Shown piece by piece: positions 3,037-18,505 of a stretch of 21,339 nucleotides of DNA. The position numbers and the translations under genes are program-made. The stretch covers positions 1 to 21,339 of the IMG/VR virus record IMGVR_UViG_3300032294_002550; one strand, written 5' to 3'. Every line of letters starts with the position of its first letter. Within the stretch, counting starts at the first letter, position 1. This DNA is from a virus. The notes below the pieces were generated by a model that saw only the letters and a program-made list of their open reading frames with translations, was not told the origin of the DNA and did not search any database.

Positions 3037-3110
3037 TGTGCCATGTAGGACTTGAACCTACGACGACCAAATTATGAGTTTGGGGCTCTAACCAACTGAG
3101 CTAATGGCAC
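3037..3110 (-). tRNA. tRNA-Met or tRNA-Ile2 (anticodon CAT)
   Basis: A complete 74-nt cloverleaf: 7-bp acceptor stem GTGCCAT/ATGGCAC, D stem GCTC/GAGC, anticodon stem CCAAA/TTTGG with loop CTCATAA (anticodon CAT), T arm GTAGG-TTCAAGT-CCTAC, discriminator A. CCA is not encoded. The acceptor stem does not have the initiator-type 1-72 mismatch, so it is an elongator Met tRNA or an Ile tRNA needing lysidine. It lies inside the leftward unit between the DUF932 and Api92-like genes. Confidence 0.95.
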
Positions 3111-9635: not shown

Positions 9636-9712
9636 AAATAATTGTTATAGCAGGTCTTGTAGCTATCCTAGTATATATATGCGGAATAATTCTGCAGTTC
9701 AATATAAACTAG
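9632..9712 (+). CDS. Small single-pass membrane protein
   Basis: 26 residues starting MKIIVIAGLVAILVYICGII: a single hydrophobic segment with a short polar end. The ATG overlaps the upstream TGA (ATGA), with AAGGCGGG as SD. Its TAG (9710-9712) overlaps the first base of the following tRNA, so tRNA processing would cut the mRNA at the stop codon. Function unknown. Confidence 0.6.
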   Translation: MKIIVIAGLVAILVYICGIILQFNIN

Positions 9713-9786
9713 GGGGTATAGCTTAATCTGGTTAAAGCAATTGTCTTATATACAATCGAGTTTGGGTTCAAATCCCAATATCCCTA
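9712..9786 (+). tRNA. tRNA-Ile (anticodon TAT)
   Basis: A 75-nt cloverleaf: acceptor GGGGGTA/TATCCCT (two G-U pairs), D arm GCTT/AAGC, anticodon stem ATTGT/ACAAT with loop CTTATAT, T arm TTGGG-TTCAAAT-CCCAA, discriminator A, no encoded CCA. Anticodon UAU reads AUA. Bacteria usually read AUA with a lysidine-modified CAU tRNA, so this is unusual. Confidence 0.9.
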
Positions 9787-9790
9787 CTTT

Positions 9791-9863
9791 GTCCCTATAG
9801 CTCAGTTGGTAGAGCAAAAGACTTTTAATCTTTGGGTCCTTGGTTCAAGTCCAAGTGGGGACA
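9791..9863 (+). tRNA. tRNA-Lys (anticodon TTT)
   Basis: A 73-nt cloverleaf: acceptor GTCCCTA/TGGGGAC, D arm GCTC/GAGC, anticodon stem AAAGA/TCTTT with loop CTTTTAA, T arm CTTGG-TTCAAGT-CCAAG, discriminator A. It is four nt after the Ile tRNA, so the two are surely cotranscribed. Confidence 0.95.
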
Positions 9864-14130: not shown

Positions 14131-14685
14131 CTACTTCTGTGTAGTTGGGAATTTTAAGTAAAACTCCTTTGCTCTTGGGGTTAGTCCCTTCCAAGCCGAC
14201 CAATTTAAACCGCCATTAGTCATGTAATACGTTATCTCTGCATTTATTACTGGATCAAATAATAGTACATTTGATCTCAGGTCAAATTTTTCTTTACGAG
14301 CAACACCAAGGTTTCCCAACATGTTGATCTGAAAAATTCCATAGGAACTGTCTCCAGTATTCCTGTTGCCATTATATGCTAGTGGGCGTCCATTGGACTC
14401 CGTCTTTGCAATGGCCCAAGCCGTTCTAAGGGCTTTTCCTTCAAAACCTACTGCTGCCAGTAGTTCTTTCAATTGATAGTCTGAAAGCTTTTCCGAAGGC
14501 TTGTAAACAGTATTGCTGTACTTTTCTAAGGTTTCTTTCTTAAGTTGTACTTCTGTCTTTGGTATTTCTATCTTCAAAGCTTGAGCGGGTACCACAGTAT
14601 TGTTTGTAAATAGAAATAATGTTATCATTACTATTACAGTCGTACTATGAGCAAAATCGCTCAGCTTTTGTTTTATATTCTCCAT
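14131..14685 (-). CDS. Secreted lytic transglycosylase-like lysin
   Basis: 184 residues. A signal peptide or anchor (MENIKQKL, then hydrophobic TVIVMITLFLFTNNTVV, AQA cleavage near 36) precedes a lysozyme-like SLT domain: WAIAKTESNGRP with catalytic Glu96, then SSYGIFQINMLGNLG, the SYGIFQIN motif of goose-type/SLT enzymes. It would cut the glycan strands of peptidoglycan. Two ATGs lie at 14691 and 14685; GGAGG is 2 nt from the first but 8 nt from the second, so I use the second. Export by the host Sec route means it may not need the holin for release. Confidence 0.85.
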   Translation of the reverse strand: MENIKQKLSDFAHSTTVIVMITLFLFTNNTVVPAQALKIEIPKTEVQLKKETLEKYSNTVYKPSEKLSDYQLKELLAAVGFEGKALRTAWAIAKTESNGRPLAYNGNRNTGDSSYGIFQINMLGNLGVARKEKFDLRSNVLLFDPVINAEITYYMTNGGLNWSAWKGLTPRAKEFYLKFPTTQK

Positions 14686-14720
14686 TGGCATTTCCTCCTT
14701 TAGAGAGATAACGAACTATA

Positions 14721-14750
14721 ATAATAACATCTACTAGCAAGTAGTGTCAA
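14721..14750 (-). promoter_or_regulatory. Sigma70-like promoter of the lysin operon with operator
   Basis: TTGACA (14750-14745), 18 nt, TATTAT (14726-14721). The spacer contains the palindrome CTACT-AGCA-AGTAG (14731-14744), a likely operator, similar to 7341-7354. Confidence 0.65.
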
Positions 14751-14772
14751 GCCAGTCAACTAGGAAGGTTTT

Positions 14773-15777
14773 ATGCAAATATCGTTTTCAACGCCAACTA
14801 TTAATATGAAAAATAATAATGGCTATGGCTATGCTGGATTAAACATAGTTGAATCTTTAAATAGTTTAGGACATGAAGTTCCTTTTCAAAGCCCAAAAGC
14901 CCCAGTACAGTTAAATTTTTCTCAGCCAGATCATTTTAAAATGCATAGAAATCAATATCAAATATCTTATACTCCATGGGAGTCTACTGTAATTCCGTCT
15001 ATATGGAAACCAAATTTAGAACTTGTAGATGAAATATGGACAACATCAGACTGGTGTGCAAATGTATTTGAATCAAATGGGTATTCGGATATTAAAGTTT
15101 TTGCACATGGAGTTTCATCTGCATGGTTTCCAAAAAGAAGAAATGGTGATGGAGTAATTAAATTTTTACATATTGGAGAACCAGCACCAAGAAAAGCAGG
15201 ACAAATGGTTCTAGATGTATTTTTATCTTTATTTGCAGATAACCCAAATTATTCATTAACCATAAAGGCTTATGGCGTTAATACCACTAGAGTTTACAAT
15301 AACTATATAGATAAGAACATCATTGGGTTACCGCAAAATATATATCAAAATGTTAATGTTATAACAGAGAATCTCGATGAAGAAGATTTAGTAAAGTTAT
15401 ATCATGATCATGATGTTTTAGTTTATCCAAGTTATGGAGAAGGGTTTGGCTTTATACCACTTCAAGCTTTAGCTACTGGAATGCCAACGATATGCACAGC
15501 TGCTTGGGCGCACTACAAAAAATATCTTGGCCCATTAAAATTAAAATCTCAACTTATAGACTCACCCTGGCAGTTCCCCCATGAAGGCAAAGTTTTTGAG
15601 CCAAACCGTCAACATCTGGTGGAGCTTATGAGAGAAGTTTCAATTAACTTTAATGCATACTCTGGATATTATTATTCTCAGGCAACCAAAATTCATGAAG
15701 AGTATAACTGGATTCAGTTAACTAATAATGCATTTTCAGATATATTTAAAAAGTTTTCTAATCCCTTCCCTCAGTAA
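14773..15777 (+). CDS. GT4-type glycosyltransferase
   Basis: 334 residues. The C-terminal Rossmann half contains YPSYGEGFGFIPLQALATG at 218-236, the donor-site motif of GT4 enzymes; the usual EX7E has Gln231 as its second acid position. FLHIGEPAPRKAGQMVL near 131-147 is the typical start of that half. The N-terminal half (STPTINMKNNNGYGYAGLNI) is the acceptor domain. A retaining GT-B transferase using a nucleotide sugar; target unknown. SD AGGAAGG. It diverges from the lysin gene with 87 bp between. Confidence 0.85.
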   Translation: MQISFSTPTINMKNNNGYGYAGLNIVESLNSLGHEVPFQSPKAPVQLNFSQPDHFKMHRNQYQISYTPWESTVIPSIWKPNLELVDEIWTTSDWCANVFESNGYSDIKVFAHGVSSAWFPKRRNGDGVIKFLHIGEPAPRKAGQMVLDVFLSLFADNPNYSLTIKAYGVNTTRVYNNYIDKNIIGLPQNIYQNVNVITENLDEEDLVKLYHDHDVLVYPSYGEGFGFIPLQALATGMPTICTAAWAHYKKYLGPLKLKSQLIDSPWQFPHEGKVFEPNRQHLVELMREVSINFNAYSGYYYSQATKIHEEYNWIQLTNNAFSDIFKKFSNPFPQ

Positions 15778-15847
15778 ATAAAGTTTGATACACTTAGGGA
15801 CTAATTAAAATTTAACAACCGCAAGGCGGAGAAAAGGTGACTCATAA

Positions 15848-17779
15848 ATGTCAAGAACTATTGAAAACCCATATGAAAACTTCATTGCATTATCTCGTTA
15901 TGCAAGATGGCTAAAAGAAGAAAATCGTCGTGAAACATGGGGCGAGACAGTAGATAGATATTTTGACTTTATGTTAAATCATTTATCAAAAATGAATTAT
16001 GTTCCAGAAGACAAACTAGTCAACGAATTAAAGCAAGCAGTATATGATAGAAATGTTATGCCTTCTATGAGATCTGTAATGACTGCAGGTGCCGCTCTAG
16101 ATCGTGACCATGTTGCAGGTTATAATTGCTCGTTTGTTCCAGTGGATAACCCAAGATCTTTTGATGAAACAATGTACATTTTAATGTGTGGAACAGGGGT
16201 AGGGTTTTCTGTTGAATACAAATATGTCAATAAACTTCCGTCAGTTCCAGAAAAATTAGAAAAGTCAACTACAGTTATTATAGTAGAAGATTCAAAGCAA
16301 GGCTGGGCAAAAGCATATCGTGAATTACTAGCACTCCTATGGTCAGGTCAGATTCCAGCAATTGATGTAAGCAAACTTCGTCCAGCTGGTGCAAGGCTTA
16401 TGACTATGGGCGGAAGATCATCTGGACCTCAGCCTTTGATAAATCTTTTTGATTTTACTATTGCAAAGTTTAAGTCTGCAGCAGGCCGTCAATTTAAGCC
16501 AATAGAGGCTCATGACATAATGTGTAAGATTGGCGAGATAGTCGTTGTCGGTGGAGTGCGTAGATCTGCAATGATATCTCTTTCAAACATTAATGACATT
16601 GAGATGGCTCAAGCAAAATCAGGAAACTGGTGGGAAAACAATTCTCAACGTGCACTTTCAAACAACTCTGTTGCATATTCTCGCAAACCAGAGATGGAGC
16701 AATTTATTGCAGAATGGAAGTCTTTATATGATTCAAAATCTGGAGAGCGTGGAATTTACAACGTCGCAGCGGCTCAAAAGCAAGCTGCTAAATTTGGTCG
16801 CAGAGATCCAGAAGTACACTATGGCACAAATCCATGTTCAGAAATTATTTTACGTCCTTATCAGTTTTGTAATCTTTCAGAAGTCGTATTACGTGAAAAA
16901 GATACAAAGAAAGATATTGAAAGAAAAGTAGAGCTAGCAACAGTACTTGGAACATGGCAATCAACTCTTACAGATTTTAAATATCTACGTAAAATATGGA
17001 AAGATAATACAGAAGAGGAAAGATTATTAGGAGTTTCCTTAACTGGACAATTCGGACATAAGTTTATGTCTGGAAAACAAGATCTAGTTTCACTAGAAGC
17101 TTTCTTAATGTCATTAAGAGAAAAAGCAAGAGAAACAAACAAAGACATTGCTGCAAAAATTGGTATACCAGAGTCCGCAGCAATTACTTGTGTAAAGCCT
17201 TCAGGTACTGTTTCTCAGCTAGTTGGCGTTTCTTCAGGAATGCATGCCTGGCATTCAGATTATTATATTCGTACAGTTCGTGGCGATAAAAAAGATCCGC
17301 TCTCAACTTTTTTAAAAGAGGTTGGGATTCCAGTTGAAGATGATGTTATGAAGCCAAACGATACACATGTATTTTCATTTCCAGTTAAAGCCCCAGAAGG
17401 CGCTATTACAAGAAATGATTTAACTGCGATAGAGCACCTAAATACATGGCTTGTATACCAGCGTGCCTGGTGTGAGCATAAACCATCAATTACAGTTTCA
17501 GTAAAAGAAGAAGAATGGATGGAAGTCGGCGCTTGGGTATATAAGCATTTTGATGAAGTATCTGGAATCTCATTCTTGCCTCATTCAGATCATTCGTATA
17601 AACAAGCCCCATATCAAGAAGTAACTAAAGAGCAATACCTGGACCTTGTTTCCAAGATGCCTAAAAATATTCGATGGGAAGATTTATCTTTTTATGAAAC
17701 AGAAGACGGCACAAGCGGAACCCAAACCCTAGCATGCACATCTGATGGCAATTGTGAGATTGTAGATATATCAGCATAG
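15848..17779 (+). CDS. nrdJ: Adenosylcobalamin-dependent (class II) ribonucleotide reductase
   Basis: 643 residues, compact compared with the Lactobacillus enzyme (739). It reduces ribonucleotides to deoxyribonucleotides using a B12-derived radical. Visible landmarks: Cys94 (AGYNCSFVP) and Cys341 (QFCNLSEV) as the redox pair; NPCSEI at 328-333 with Cys330 as radical site, Asn328 and Glu332; KPSGTVSQLVG in the barrel; C-terminal Cys630 and Cys636 (ACTSDGNC) as the relay pair. SD GAAAAGGTG. A CCGC-AAG-GCGG hairpin is in the 70-nt leader; no cobalamin riboswitch is visible. It lets the phage make dNTPs without oxygen or a small subunit. Confidence 0.95.
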   Translation: MSRTIENPYENFIALSRYARWLKEENRRETWGETVDRYFDFMLNHLSKMNYVPEDKLVNELKQAVYDRNVMPSMRSVMTAGAALDRDHVAGYNCSFVPVDNPRSFDETMYILMCGTGVGFSVEYKYVNKLPSVPEKLEKSTTVIIVEDSKQGWAKAYRELLALLWSGQIPAIDVSKLRPAGARLMTMGGRSSGPQPLINLFDFTIAKFKSAAGRQFKPIEAHDIMCKIGEIVVVGGVRRSAMISLSNINDIEMAQAKSGNWWENNSQRALSNNSVAYSRKPEMEQFIAEWKSLYDSKSGERGIYNVAAAQKQAAKFGRRDPEVHYGTNPCSEIILRPYQFCNLSEVVLREKDTKKDIERKVELATVLGTWQSTLTDFKYLRKIWKDNTEEERLLGVSLTGQFGHKFMSGKQDLVSLEAFLMSLREKARETNKDIAAKIGIPESAAITCVKPSGTVSQLVGVSSGMHAWHSDYYIRTVRGDKKDPLSTFLKEVGIPVEDDVMKPNDTHVFSFPVKAPEGAITRNDLTAIEHLNTWLVYQRAWCEHKPSITVSVKEEEWMEVGAWVYKHFDEVSGISFLPHSDHSYKQAPYQEVTKEQYLDLVSKMPKNIRWEDLSFYETEDGTSGTQTLACTSDGNCEIVDISA

Positions 17780-17795
17780 TGGTAGAATAATAAGA

Positions 17796-17829
17796 TTGGG
17801 GAAACCCAAAATTCTGGGCACACCGCCCA
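17796..17829 (+). other. Two hairpins between nrdJ and holin
   Basis: TTGGG-GAAA-CCCAA (17796-17809, GNRA loop) and TGGGC-ACACC-GCCCA (17815-17829). They precede the holin SD and may set its expression or stabilise mRNA ends. No U-tract. Confidence 0.5.
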
Positions 17830-17845
17830 AAATGGAGATGATAAA

Positions 17846-18085
17846 ATGAGTAAATTCGATAAAGCGGATTTAAACAAAGACGGAAAGGTAACAATGACAG
17901 AACAATTATTAGCAGCTTTAGGAACATACGCAAGAGCATTCCTATCTGCAGCAATTGCATTATATATGACTGGAAACACAAATCCAAGAGATCTTCTCAT
18001 GGGTGGAATTGCAGCGGTAGCTCCAGTTATCCTAAAGGCATTAAGCCCAAGCAACCAAGAATTTGGTTTTAAAAGCCCAAAGTAA
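17846..18085 (+). CDS. Holin-like membrane protein with an EF-hand loop
   Basis: 79 residues. Residues 8-19 (DLNKDGKVTMTE) match a full EF-hand/dockerin calcium loop (D, N, D at 1, 3, 5; Gly at 6; Glu at 12). Two hydrophobic segments follow: TYARAFLSAAIALYMTG near 27-43 and LLMGGIAAVAPVILKAL near 50-66, then a polar tail. Two short helices with Gly/Ala content recall the r1t-type holin family. It would form lesions in the inner membrane. SD TGGAGATGATAAA. The position after nrdJ and away from the lysin is unusual but fits the right arm. Confidence 0.75.
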   Translation: MSKFDKADLNKDGKVTMTEQLLAALGTYARAFLSAAIALYMTGNTNPRDLLMGGIAAVAPVILKALSPSNQEFGFKSPK

Positions 18086-18154: not shown

Positions 18155-18505
18155 ATGGCAGTATCAAAAAACTTTGAAGTAGATCAAAATGCTACATTCA
18201 TTTTTGAAGTTCAATACACTTTGGAAGATGAAGTAACGCCTATTGATATTACTGGTGCATCCGCAAAGATGCAGGTTCGTGACACCCAAGGTGGTTCTAA
18301 GTTAGCTTTTACGCTAACTTCACCAACAGGCGGAATTACAATAGATGGCCCAGATGGAACATTAACTGTAAAGATGACACCAACCCAAACAAACAAACTG
18401 TTCTATCCAAAATCTTCTTATGACATTATGATAATTGATTCTAATGGGAATAAAATAAAACTCCTTGAGGGTTTTATGACACTCAGTAGATCGGTTACCA
18501 TCTGA
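18155..18505 (+). CDS. Phage virion-associated protein, baseplate-like beta domain
   Basis: 116 residues starting MAVSKNFEVDQNATFIFEVQ. The order TPIDITGASAKMQVRDTQGG, ITIDGPDGTLTVKM and SYDIMIIDSNGNKIKLLEG recalls the beta-sandwich at the N-terminus of BppU-type baseplate proteins. I infer a link between tail tip and fibre. SD AGGAG lies 10 nt upstream. Its TGA overlaps the next ATG (TGATG). It is the first gene of the tail-fibre cluster. Confidence 0.65.
   Translation: MAVSKNFEVDQNATFIFEVQYTLEDEVTPIDITGASAKMQVRDTQGGSKLAFTLTSPTGGITIDGPDGTLTVKMTPTQTNKLFYPKSSYDIMIIDSNGNKIKLLEGFMTLSRSVTI

Follow-up and report, generated by a model that had tools for sequence, protein, structure and literature searches.

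Genetic organization of the locus

The window, that is the whole stretch of 21,339 nucleotides of viral DNA analysed here, carries a gene for a 79-amino-acid protein predicted to cross the membrane twice, with a loop of the EF-hand type ahead of its first helix. The gene is preceded by a Shine-Dalgarno-like GGAG (17834-17837) and by a short leader with two hairpins, and it lies between a ribonucleotide reductase (RNR) gene and a gene whose product matches both phrog_1084, of unknown function (E=1.2e-22), and phrog_3304, annotated as L-shaped tail fiber protein assembly (E=1.3e-4). A lysozyme/transglycosylase-like gene is found further upstream on the other strand (Table 1). A scan of the window at Rfam gathering level returned nothing but three tRNA genes, at 3037-3110 (-), 9712-9786 (+) and 9791-9863 (+).

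Table 1. Features of the 79-amino-acid protein gene and its surroundings in the window.
Feature	Positions	Strand	Basis
Lysozyme/transglycosylase-like protein with N-terminal hydrophobic segment	14131..14691	-	PF18896 (SLT_3), E=4.7e-14
Ribonucleotide reductase (RNR), directly upstream	15848..17779	+	phrog_367, E=2.8e-189
TGGTAGAAT, candidate promoter element right after the RNR stop	17780..17788	+	Conserved in a 40-sequence leader alignment
Leader hairpin 1, TTGGGGAAACCCAA	17796..17809	+	Strong stem in 92/120 leaders vs 32% of single-base shuffles (overlapping search windows)
Leader hairpin 2, TGGGCACACCGCCCA, immediately ahead of the ribosome site	17815..17829	+	Strong stem in 119/120 leaders vs 21% of single-base shuffles (overlapping search windows)
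Two-helix membrane protein of 79 aa (P0001), holin-type candidate	17846..18085	+	ORF, hydropathy, AlphaFold2, relatives
EF-hand-type (calcium-binding-type) loop DLNKDGKVTMTE, aa 8-19	17867..17902	+	Pfam EF-hand_5 below cut-off; purifying selection at the ligand positions
Shine-Dalgarno-like GGAAAGG before the internal ATG	17882..17888	+	Duplex energy -5.4
Internal ATG in the same frame (Met17, at loop position 10), candidate second start	17894..17896	+	Start codon in 145/145 variants
Helix 1, hydrophobic part, aa 29-42, with invariant Arg30	17930..17971	+	Hydropathy; AlphaFold2 helix 17-41
Helix 2, aa 49-66	17990..18043	+	Hydropathy; AlphaFold2 helix 47-66
Tail-fibre-assembly-like gene, directly downstream	18155..18505	+	phrog_1084, phrog_3304

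The original prediction had described a holin-like protein with two membrane helices, and the helices are fairly well supported by hydropathy and AlphaFold2, helix 1 being peculiar in that it contains an invariant arginine, Arg30, because of which its purely hydrophobic stretch is short. The AlphaFold2 model of the protein, computed from 47 sequences (mean pLDDT 70.5, pTM 0.46), places the helices with moderate confidence and the loop region with low confidence (pLDDT 50-58). Residues R30, G43, T45, P47, A56, P60, V61 and G74 are invariant in an alignment of 50 rows, and a conserved G-x-T-x-P turn joins both helices. Averaged over 145 variants, the net charge is +1.2 for the N-terminus, -0.4 for the turn and +2.0 for the C-terminus, a pattern that would most likely fit a topology with both ends in the cytoplasm. 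By hydropathy and AlphaFold2, the protein combines the small size and the two membrane helices expected of a holin.

Relatives of the two-helix protein

Each search of viral contigs found more than 500 related stretches, with 80 loci listed per search; the variant and locus counts given throughout are minimum numbers, biased towards the queries. Two of the searches used core-only queries to keep the loop from biasing the sampling. The 455 loci collected include 447 with a recognisable core, representing 204 distinct nucleotide variants, loci of one contig being merged only if their nucleotides were identical. The eight loci dropped for want of the anchor pattern (L156, L416, L424-L428 and L432) are all loop-free.

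PHROGs gave no match for the window protein, and no holin family was matched in PHROGs and NCBIfam searches with 50 members or in Pfam searches with 11 proteins; the matches obtained in these three collections were EF-hand or dockerin models together with weak, unrelated ones. Annotated phage records contain a single relative at E<1, WJZ48444.1 of phage DSL-LC01 (43% identity, E=1e-11), which keeps both helices but has no loop, its annotated start lying after the place of the loop. PMC10611076 describes DSL-LC01 as a lake phage assembled from a metagenome, its host being predicted among the Actinomycetia, and a lake or freshwater origin is stated for this named record only. The single relative from bacterial and archaeal genomes comes from a pond MAG, on a contig assigned to an alphaproteobacterial bin. 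Isolates infecting 'Ca. Nanopelagicales' do exist, with genomes of about 39 kb according to PMC10202952. The two-helix proteins probably constitute a family of lysis genes that has not been described before and is common among uncultured phages.

An EF-hand-type loop under purifying selection

The claim of an EF-hand on the protein holds for its loop and for the ligands within it, since residues 8-19 form a 12-residue loop with ligand residues at positions 1, 3, 5 and 12 and a glycine at position 6. The loop matches Pfam EF-hand_5 with E=5e-4 and 19.9 bits, which is below the gathering cut-off of 25.9, and Dockerin_1 with E=0.019, also below cut-off. The strict pattern D.[DNS].[DNS]G.[VIL]...E has a single occurrence in the whole window read in six frames and appeared in 5 of 200,000 sequences obtained by shuffling the residues of the protein. 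Beyond the loop the designation has to be narrowed. No entering helix precedes the loop, which follows only seven residues, AlphaFold2 beginning helix 1 at residue 17 and giving low confidence before it. The PROSITE EF-hand pattern expects a hydrophobic residue at position 13, where the window protein has Gln and others have Glu or Lys, and the window loop does not match the 13-residue form of that pattern. The protein is a loop with an exit helix, not a full EF-hand. Dockerin type I and EF-hand half motifs share with it the same 12-residue loop chemistry and the exit helix, but the window protein has a single loop, no repeat, and an exit helix that runs into a membrane helix.

Since the loop has neither an entering helix nor a hydrophobic residue 13, its affinity for Ca2+ may be low. 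A lone loop of probably low affinity would suit the millimolar Ca2+ found outside cells, and the loop could accordingly be pictured outside the membrane, always loaded with Ca2+ and serving as a structural or lipid-bridging anchor; the charge pattern, however, favours both ends inside, and we hold this arrangement to be highly improbable.

The loop is present in 145 of the 204 distinct variants, in the form of 19 loop types, and absent from 59, its presence being scored with a regular expression in which Gly6 and ligand-type residues are mandatory. In 144 unique loop-bearing sequences, positions 1, 3, 5, 6 and 12 show 2 amino-acid versus about 61 synonymous changes while the other seven positions show 23 versus 58 (Fisher p = 4e-5), in a set that was chosen by the very pattern demanding Gly6 and ligand-type residues. 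For this reason the changes were recounted over 146 sequences including two degraded loops, on a tree derived from the core only and with Gly6 left out; positions 1, 3, 5 and 12 then show 6 amino-acid versus 58 synonymous changes and the other seven 33 versus 67 (p = 6e-4, this test and the former both treating parsimony changes as independent). The two ligand changes of the 144-sequence set, N3D and D5N, both occur in one loop type, DLDKNGKVTEME. Conservation of the loop among homologues, the check that the original prediction had suggested, is borne out in the loop-bearing lineage, where the ligand positions are under purifying selection, and this constraint looks like what selection for metal coordination would produce.

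Loss of the loop in relatives

Whole lineages without the loop are common, as shown by the 59 loop-free variants among 204, a count that includes L357 although a contig end cuts it inside the loop. In addition, within the loop-bearing lineage the loop was found deleted in L444 and L447, degraded in L421 and L350, where positions 3 and 5 are Lys and Asn, and replaced by a different N-terminus in the L211 group, with the helices kept every time. In the L444, L447, L350 and L211 sequences, the segment directly upstream shows the C-terminus of RNR. On a core-only tree of 46 columns, in which more than half of the forks are open and bootstrap is not settled, the four loop-lost rows occupy four places among the loop-bearing rows and require 4 changes, also on starred branches; the loop label needs 6 changes when all loop-free rows are counted. 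L350 and a loop-bearing relative have identical cores, yet the degraded loop of L350 is similar to the one in L421; a single origin, followed by exchange, may therefore account for both degraded loops.

These losses bear directly on the proposal that calcium entering upon membrane damage triggers or times pore opening. Taken as a trigger, a cytoplasmic loop would stay empty until damage admits Ca2+, and binding would then open or nucleate the pore. The conserved loop ligands and a charge distribution suggesting a cytoplasmic N-terminus agree with such a sequence of events, but the loop has been deleted, degraded or replaced while the helices were kept, and loop-free lineages sit in lysis cassettes, so that we rate a calcium trigger as quite unlikely. 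Homologues devoid of the ligands, in entire lineages as well as in the individual cases above, retain the helices, which is the finding that the original prediction itself had named as its refutation. An obligate role of calcium as trigger is thereby excluded for the pore family, and the prediction fails to that extent. Calcium as a tuner of lysis survives the loop losses, and timing by calcium entry is possible in the loop-bearing phages. Kept intact in one lineage and dispensable in relatives, the loop has the look of an accessory for regulation and not of a part of the pore.

Gene neighbourhood and lytic enzymes

Gene neighbourhoods were counted at 168 loci including the window, 114 of them loop-bearing and 54 loop-free. 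RNR is directly upstream in all 114 loop-bearing loci, and a gene of the lysozyme-like cluster lies 2.1-3.2 kb upstream on the other strand in 104 of them. A different setting is seen at the loop-free loci, 44 of which have a CHAP or a VanY cluster beside the gene, none having both. In 32 of the 54 a CHAP-cluster gene terminates 3-40 nt beyond the frame's first Met, and a VanY-cluster gene is located downstream in 12, overlapping by 16 nt in ten; lysins are represented in these counts by single-linkage clusters, of which one cassette member per cluster was checked in Pfam. At nine loop-free loci neither of the two lysin clusters is within reach; five of these loci are the L211 group, which occupies the RNR slot. 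The endolysin annotated in DSL-LC01 is encoded 1.4 kb downstream of the homologue, and the CHAP match of DSL-LC01 in Pfam is below cut-off.

No lysin directly adjoins the gene in the loop-bearing phages. Searches of 20 records (19 loop-bearing) detected SLT_3 in 18 and CHAP in 9, in 7 of them as a separate gene of about 200 aa. The CHAP domains of G003, G015 and G017 lie inside giant open frames of about 3,700-3,800 aa, which are probably virion proteins. In the six loop-bearing phages examined for it, the separate CHAP gene is found elsewhere than the gene of the 79-aa protein, and in one of the six (L461), whose CHAP genes were examined with about 1.5 kb of surroundings, a plausible two-helix membrane protein is encoded next to it. 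A 91-aa frame with hydrophobic stretches near the CHAP gene of L459, on the other strand, was taken as spurious.

Loop-free homologues in lysis cassettes are adjoined by other small membrane proteins (clusters 16 and 27), and a cluster-16 relative stands beside the CHAP gene in one of the 20 records searched (19 loop-bearing). Given these other membrane proteins in loop-free cassettes and the one relative beside a CHAP gene, the 79-aa protein may not be the holin itself. It could be another membrane protein of the lysis cassette, for instance an antiholin, an anchor or an accessory protein, with the holin encoded elsewhere, as the position of clusters 16 and 27 and the distance of the CHAP lysin in the six loop-bearing phages would allow. 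Against this, the two-helix family itself recurs in CHAP cassettes, in VanY cassettes and in the RNR slot, and the rival protein appeared in only that one record, cluster 16 alone having been surveyed; a holin elsewhere is in our judgement rather unlikely. At L181:6083-6472 and L461:699-1151 an undescribed small membrane protein lies beside CHAP endolysins, the L181 member being without a Pfam match; proteins of this type are candidates for a rival or a partner holin.

Further context is provided by Streptomyces phages. Among the matches listed (15 of 1191 records), the window RNR is about 66% identical to the RNR of 130-kb Streptomyces phages. Two such phages of the Boydwoodruffvirinae, Yaboi and LilMartin, encode in this order a transglycosylase-type protein, a glycosyltransferase, RNR and an Amidase_2+LysM endolysin, and positions 14131-17779 of the window present the same order with the 79-aa protein in the slot of the endolysin. 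The first gene of this series is annotated as hypothetical in LilMartin and matches SLT, and is annotated as transglycosylase in Yaboi, where it matches no Pfam model. Relatives of the window glycosyltransferase occur in 138 records, and 127 of these are Streptomyces phages. The relatives of the window transglycosylase-type gene belong to 22 records, namely 17 Prochlorococcus phages and 5 Streptomyces scabiei phages, and none was found in Yaboi or LilMartin, which are recorded from hosts of other species; for this gene the order is shared by function, not by demonstrated homology.

The term holin-like is strengthened by the lytic enzymes beside loop-free homologues and by the endolysin that takes this slot in the two Streptomyces phages; for the loop-bearing phages, with no lysin directly adjoining, the association with a lysin is by this shared slot only. 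A holin-type role for the protein fits the gene context.

A structured leader and a candidate internal start

The segment between the RNR stop and the gene begins with TGGTAGAAT, a candidate promoter element of the extended -10-like type. The stems of the two hairpins that follow it vary among 120 distinct leaders, with 68 different best stems for hairpin 2 and 64 for hairpin 1. RNAalifold recovered 3 pairs, all in hairpin 2 and each altered at both of its bases in at least one sequence, this low number apparently arising because differences in loop length shift hairpin 1 in the alignment. In the window and 12 other loci, a covariance model of the leader, which with its 3 base pairs acts mostly as a sequence profile, located the leader nowhere but before the gene of the 79-aa protein, save for a weak second match in L205 (E=0.86). 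The leaders of L199, L444 and L447 match the profile weakly (E 0.28-0.74), and that of DSL-LC01 does not match it.

All 145 loop-bearing variants contain an in-frame start codon within the loop, close to the place at which most loop-free homologues start. This codon is an ATG at position 10 in 140, a GTG (Val) at position 10 in one and an ATG at position 11 in four, and it precedes the invariant arginine by 13 residues (141 variants) or 12 (4 variants). A Met placed 12 or 13 residues before the invariant arginine is likewise present in 48 of the 59 loop-free variants, among them L357 and the two degraded loops, both of which retain the internal ATG. The Shine-Dalgarno-like sites preceding the internal start reach -4 kcal/mol or lower in 145 of 145 cases versus 17% of 2727 control internal ATGs. 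Their strength nevertheless failed as support for the internal start, since synonymous shuffles give an equal mean (-5.44, versus -5.46 for the natural sites); because the shuffles score alike, the internal codons are not tuned beyond what the DGKV residues entail. The first start has the stronger site, with a mean of -8.19 versus -5.46. The codons of G6 and K7 go together, as GGA-AAG or GGG-AAA, in 128 of the 133 variants considered (the other 12 of the 145 have different or incomplete codons), a linkage that comprises only 4 supported independent pairs with a median p of 0.125.

The same data could be read as showing that the loop codons are kept for the sake of translation, DGKV being a Shine-Dalgarno-like stretch, Met10 of the loop the real or main start, and the tail a means of setting charge or length. 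The universal start codon, the energies of the internal sites and the G6/K7 linkage speak for it. Such an explanation leaves the conservation of Asp1, Asn3, Asp5 and Glu12 through many synonymous changes unaccounted for, and it has to contend with the stronger site of the upstream start, the equal energy of synonymous shuffles and the 4 independent pairs behind the linkage, for which reasons we find it improbable. The retained in-loop start codon suggests instead a dual-start gene that would also make a loop-free form in addition to the full-length protein; that this dual start works in practice has, in our estimate, about one chance in three.

A proposed metal-tuned lysis protein

Taking these observations together, we lean, by a little more than an even chance, towards a two-helix holin-type lysis protein whose accessory tail binds metal and adjusts the time of lysis, possibly with the loop-bearing form as a regulated partner of a loop-free form. 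The two short membrane helices would permeabilise the membrane so that lytic enzymes can act. The EF-hand-type loop ahead of helix 1, which is found in one large lineage, would be the accessory tail; a divalent ion, most likely Ca2+, would bind this loop and order it where helix 1 begins. As EF loops have a tendency to pair, binding would also change the association of neighbouring molecules. In doing so the loop would adjust when lysis occurs instead of forming part of the pore. Initiation at the in-loop start would yield the loop-free form, and the loop-bearing form would act as an antiholin or brake, as in dual-start holins. A fully specified version, in which the Ca2+-bound loop of the long form is a tunable brake, the in-loop start produces the loop-free holin, the two-hairpin leader sets their ratio and loss of the loop switches regulation off, appears unlikely.

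The closest functional model is the S protein of phage 21. According to PMC13056207 and PMC9671378, phage 21 S has two helices with both ends inside and a longer antiholin form made from a second start. This pinholin (class II, dual start) is comparable to the window protein in its small size, its two helices, the location of both ends inside, which is putative here, and the N-terminal extension of the product of the shorter start. They differ in that the extension is 16 aa long and carries a metal-type loop in the window protein versus 3 residues in phage 21 S, and in that the dual start is a candidate in the former. Two-TMD holin-like proteins from mycobacteriophages and Gordonia phages (such as LysF1a, D29 gp11 and Ms6 gp4) also belong to actinophage lysis cassettes and have two helices, with an N-in/C-in topology reported in these sources, and LysF1a is similar in size to the 79-aa protein. 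The word calcium is absent from the main text of both papers.

Among the matches listed in literature searches combining holin with EF-hand, calcium-binding or phage lysis, no calcium-binding holin was found. One study screened structural proteins for EF-hands and its authors report finding none; another paper mentions a phage protein with a predicted EF-hand and gives no further detail. The control of lysis timing is a long-standing question, and the role of calcium in it is directly testable here because matched natural proteins with and without the loop are available, several of them in the same gene slot. A holin-type protein bearing such a loop points to an undescribed lysis-gene family of uncultured phages.

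Two weak resemblances of the family to other proteins were also recorded. Over the G-x-T-x-P turn its profile is similar (E=1.4e-4) to residues 331-369 of a PTS sugar transporter (PDB 5iws/6bvg), and TIGR02003 is weakly matched by 17 of 50 members; both likenesses could be convergence.
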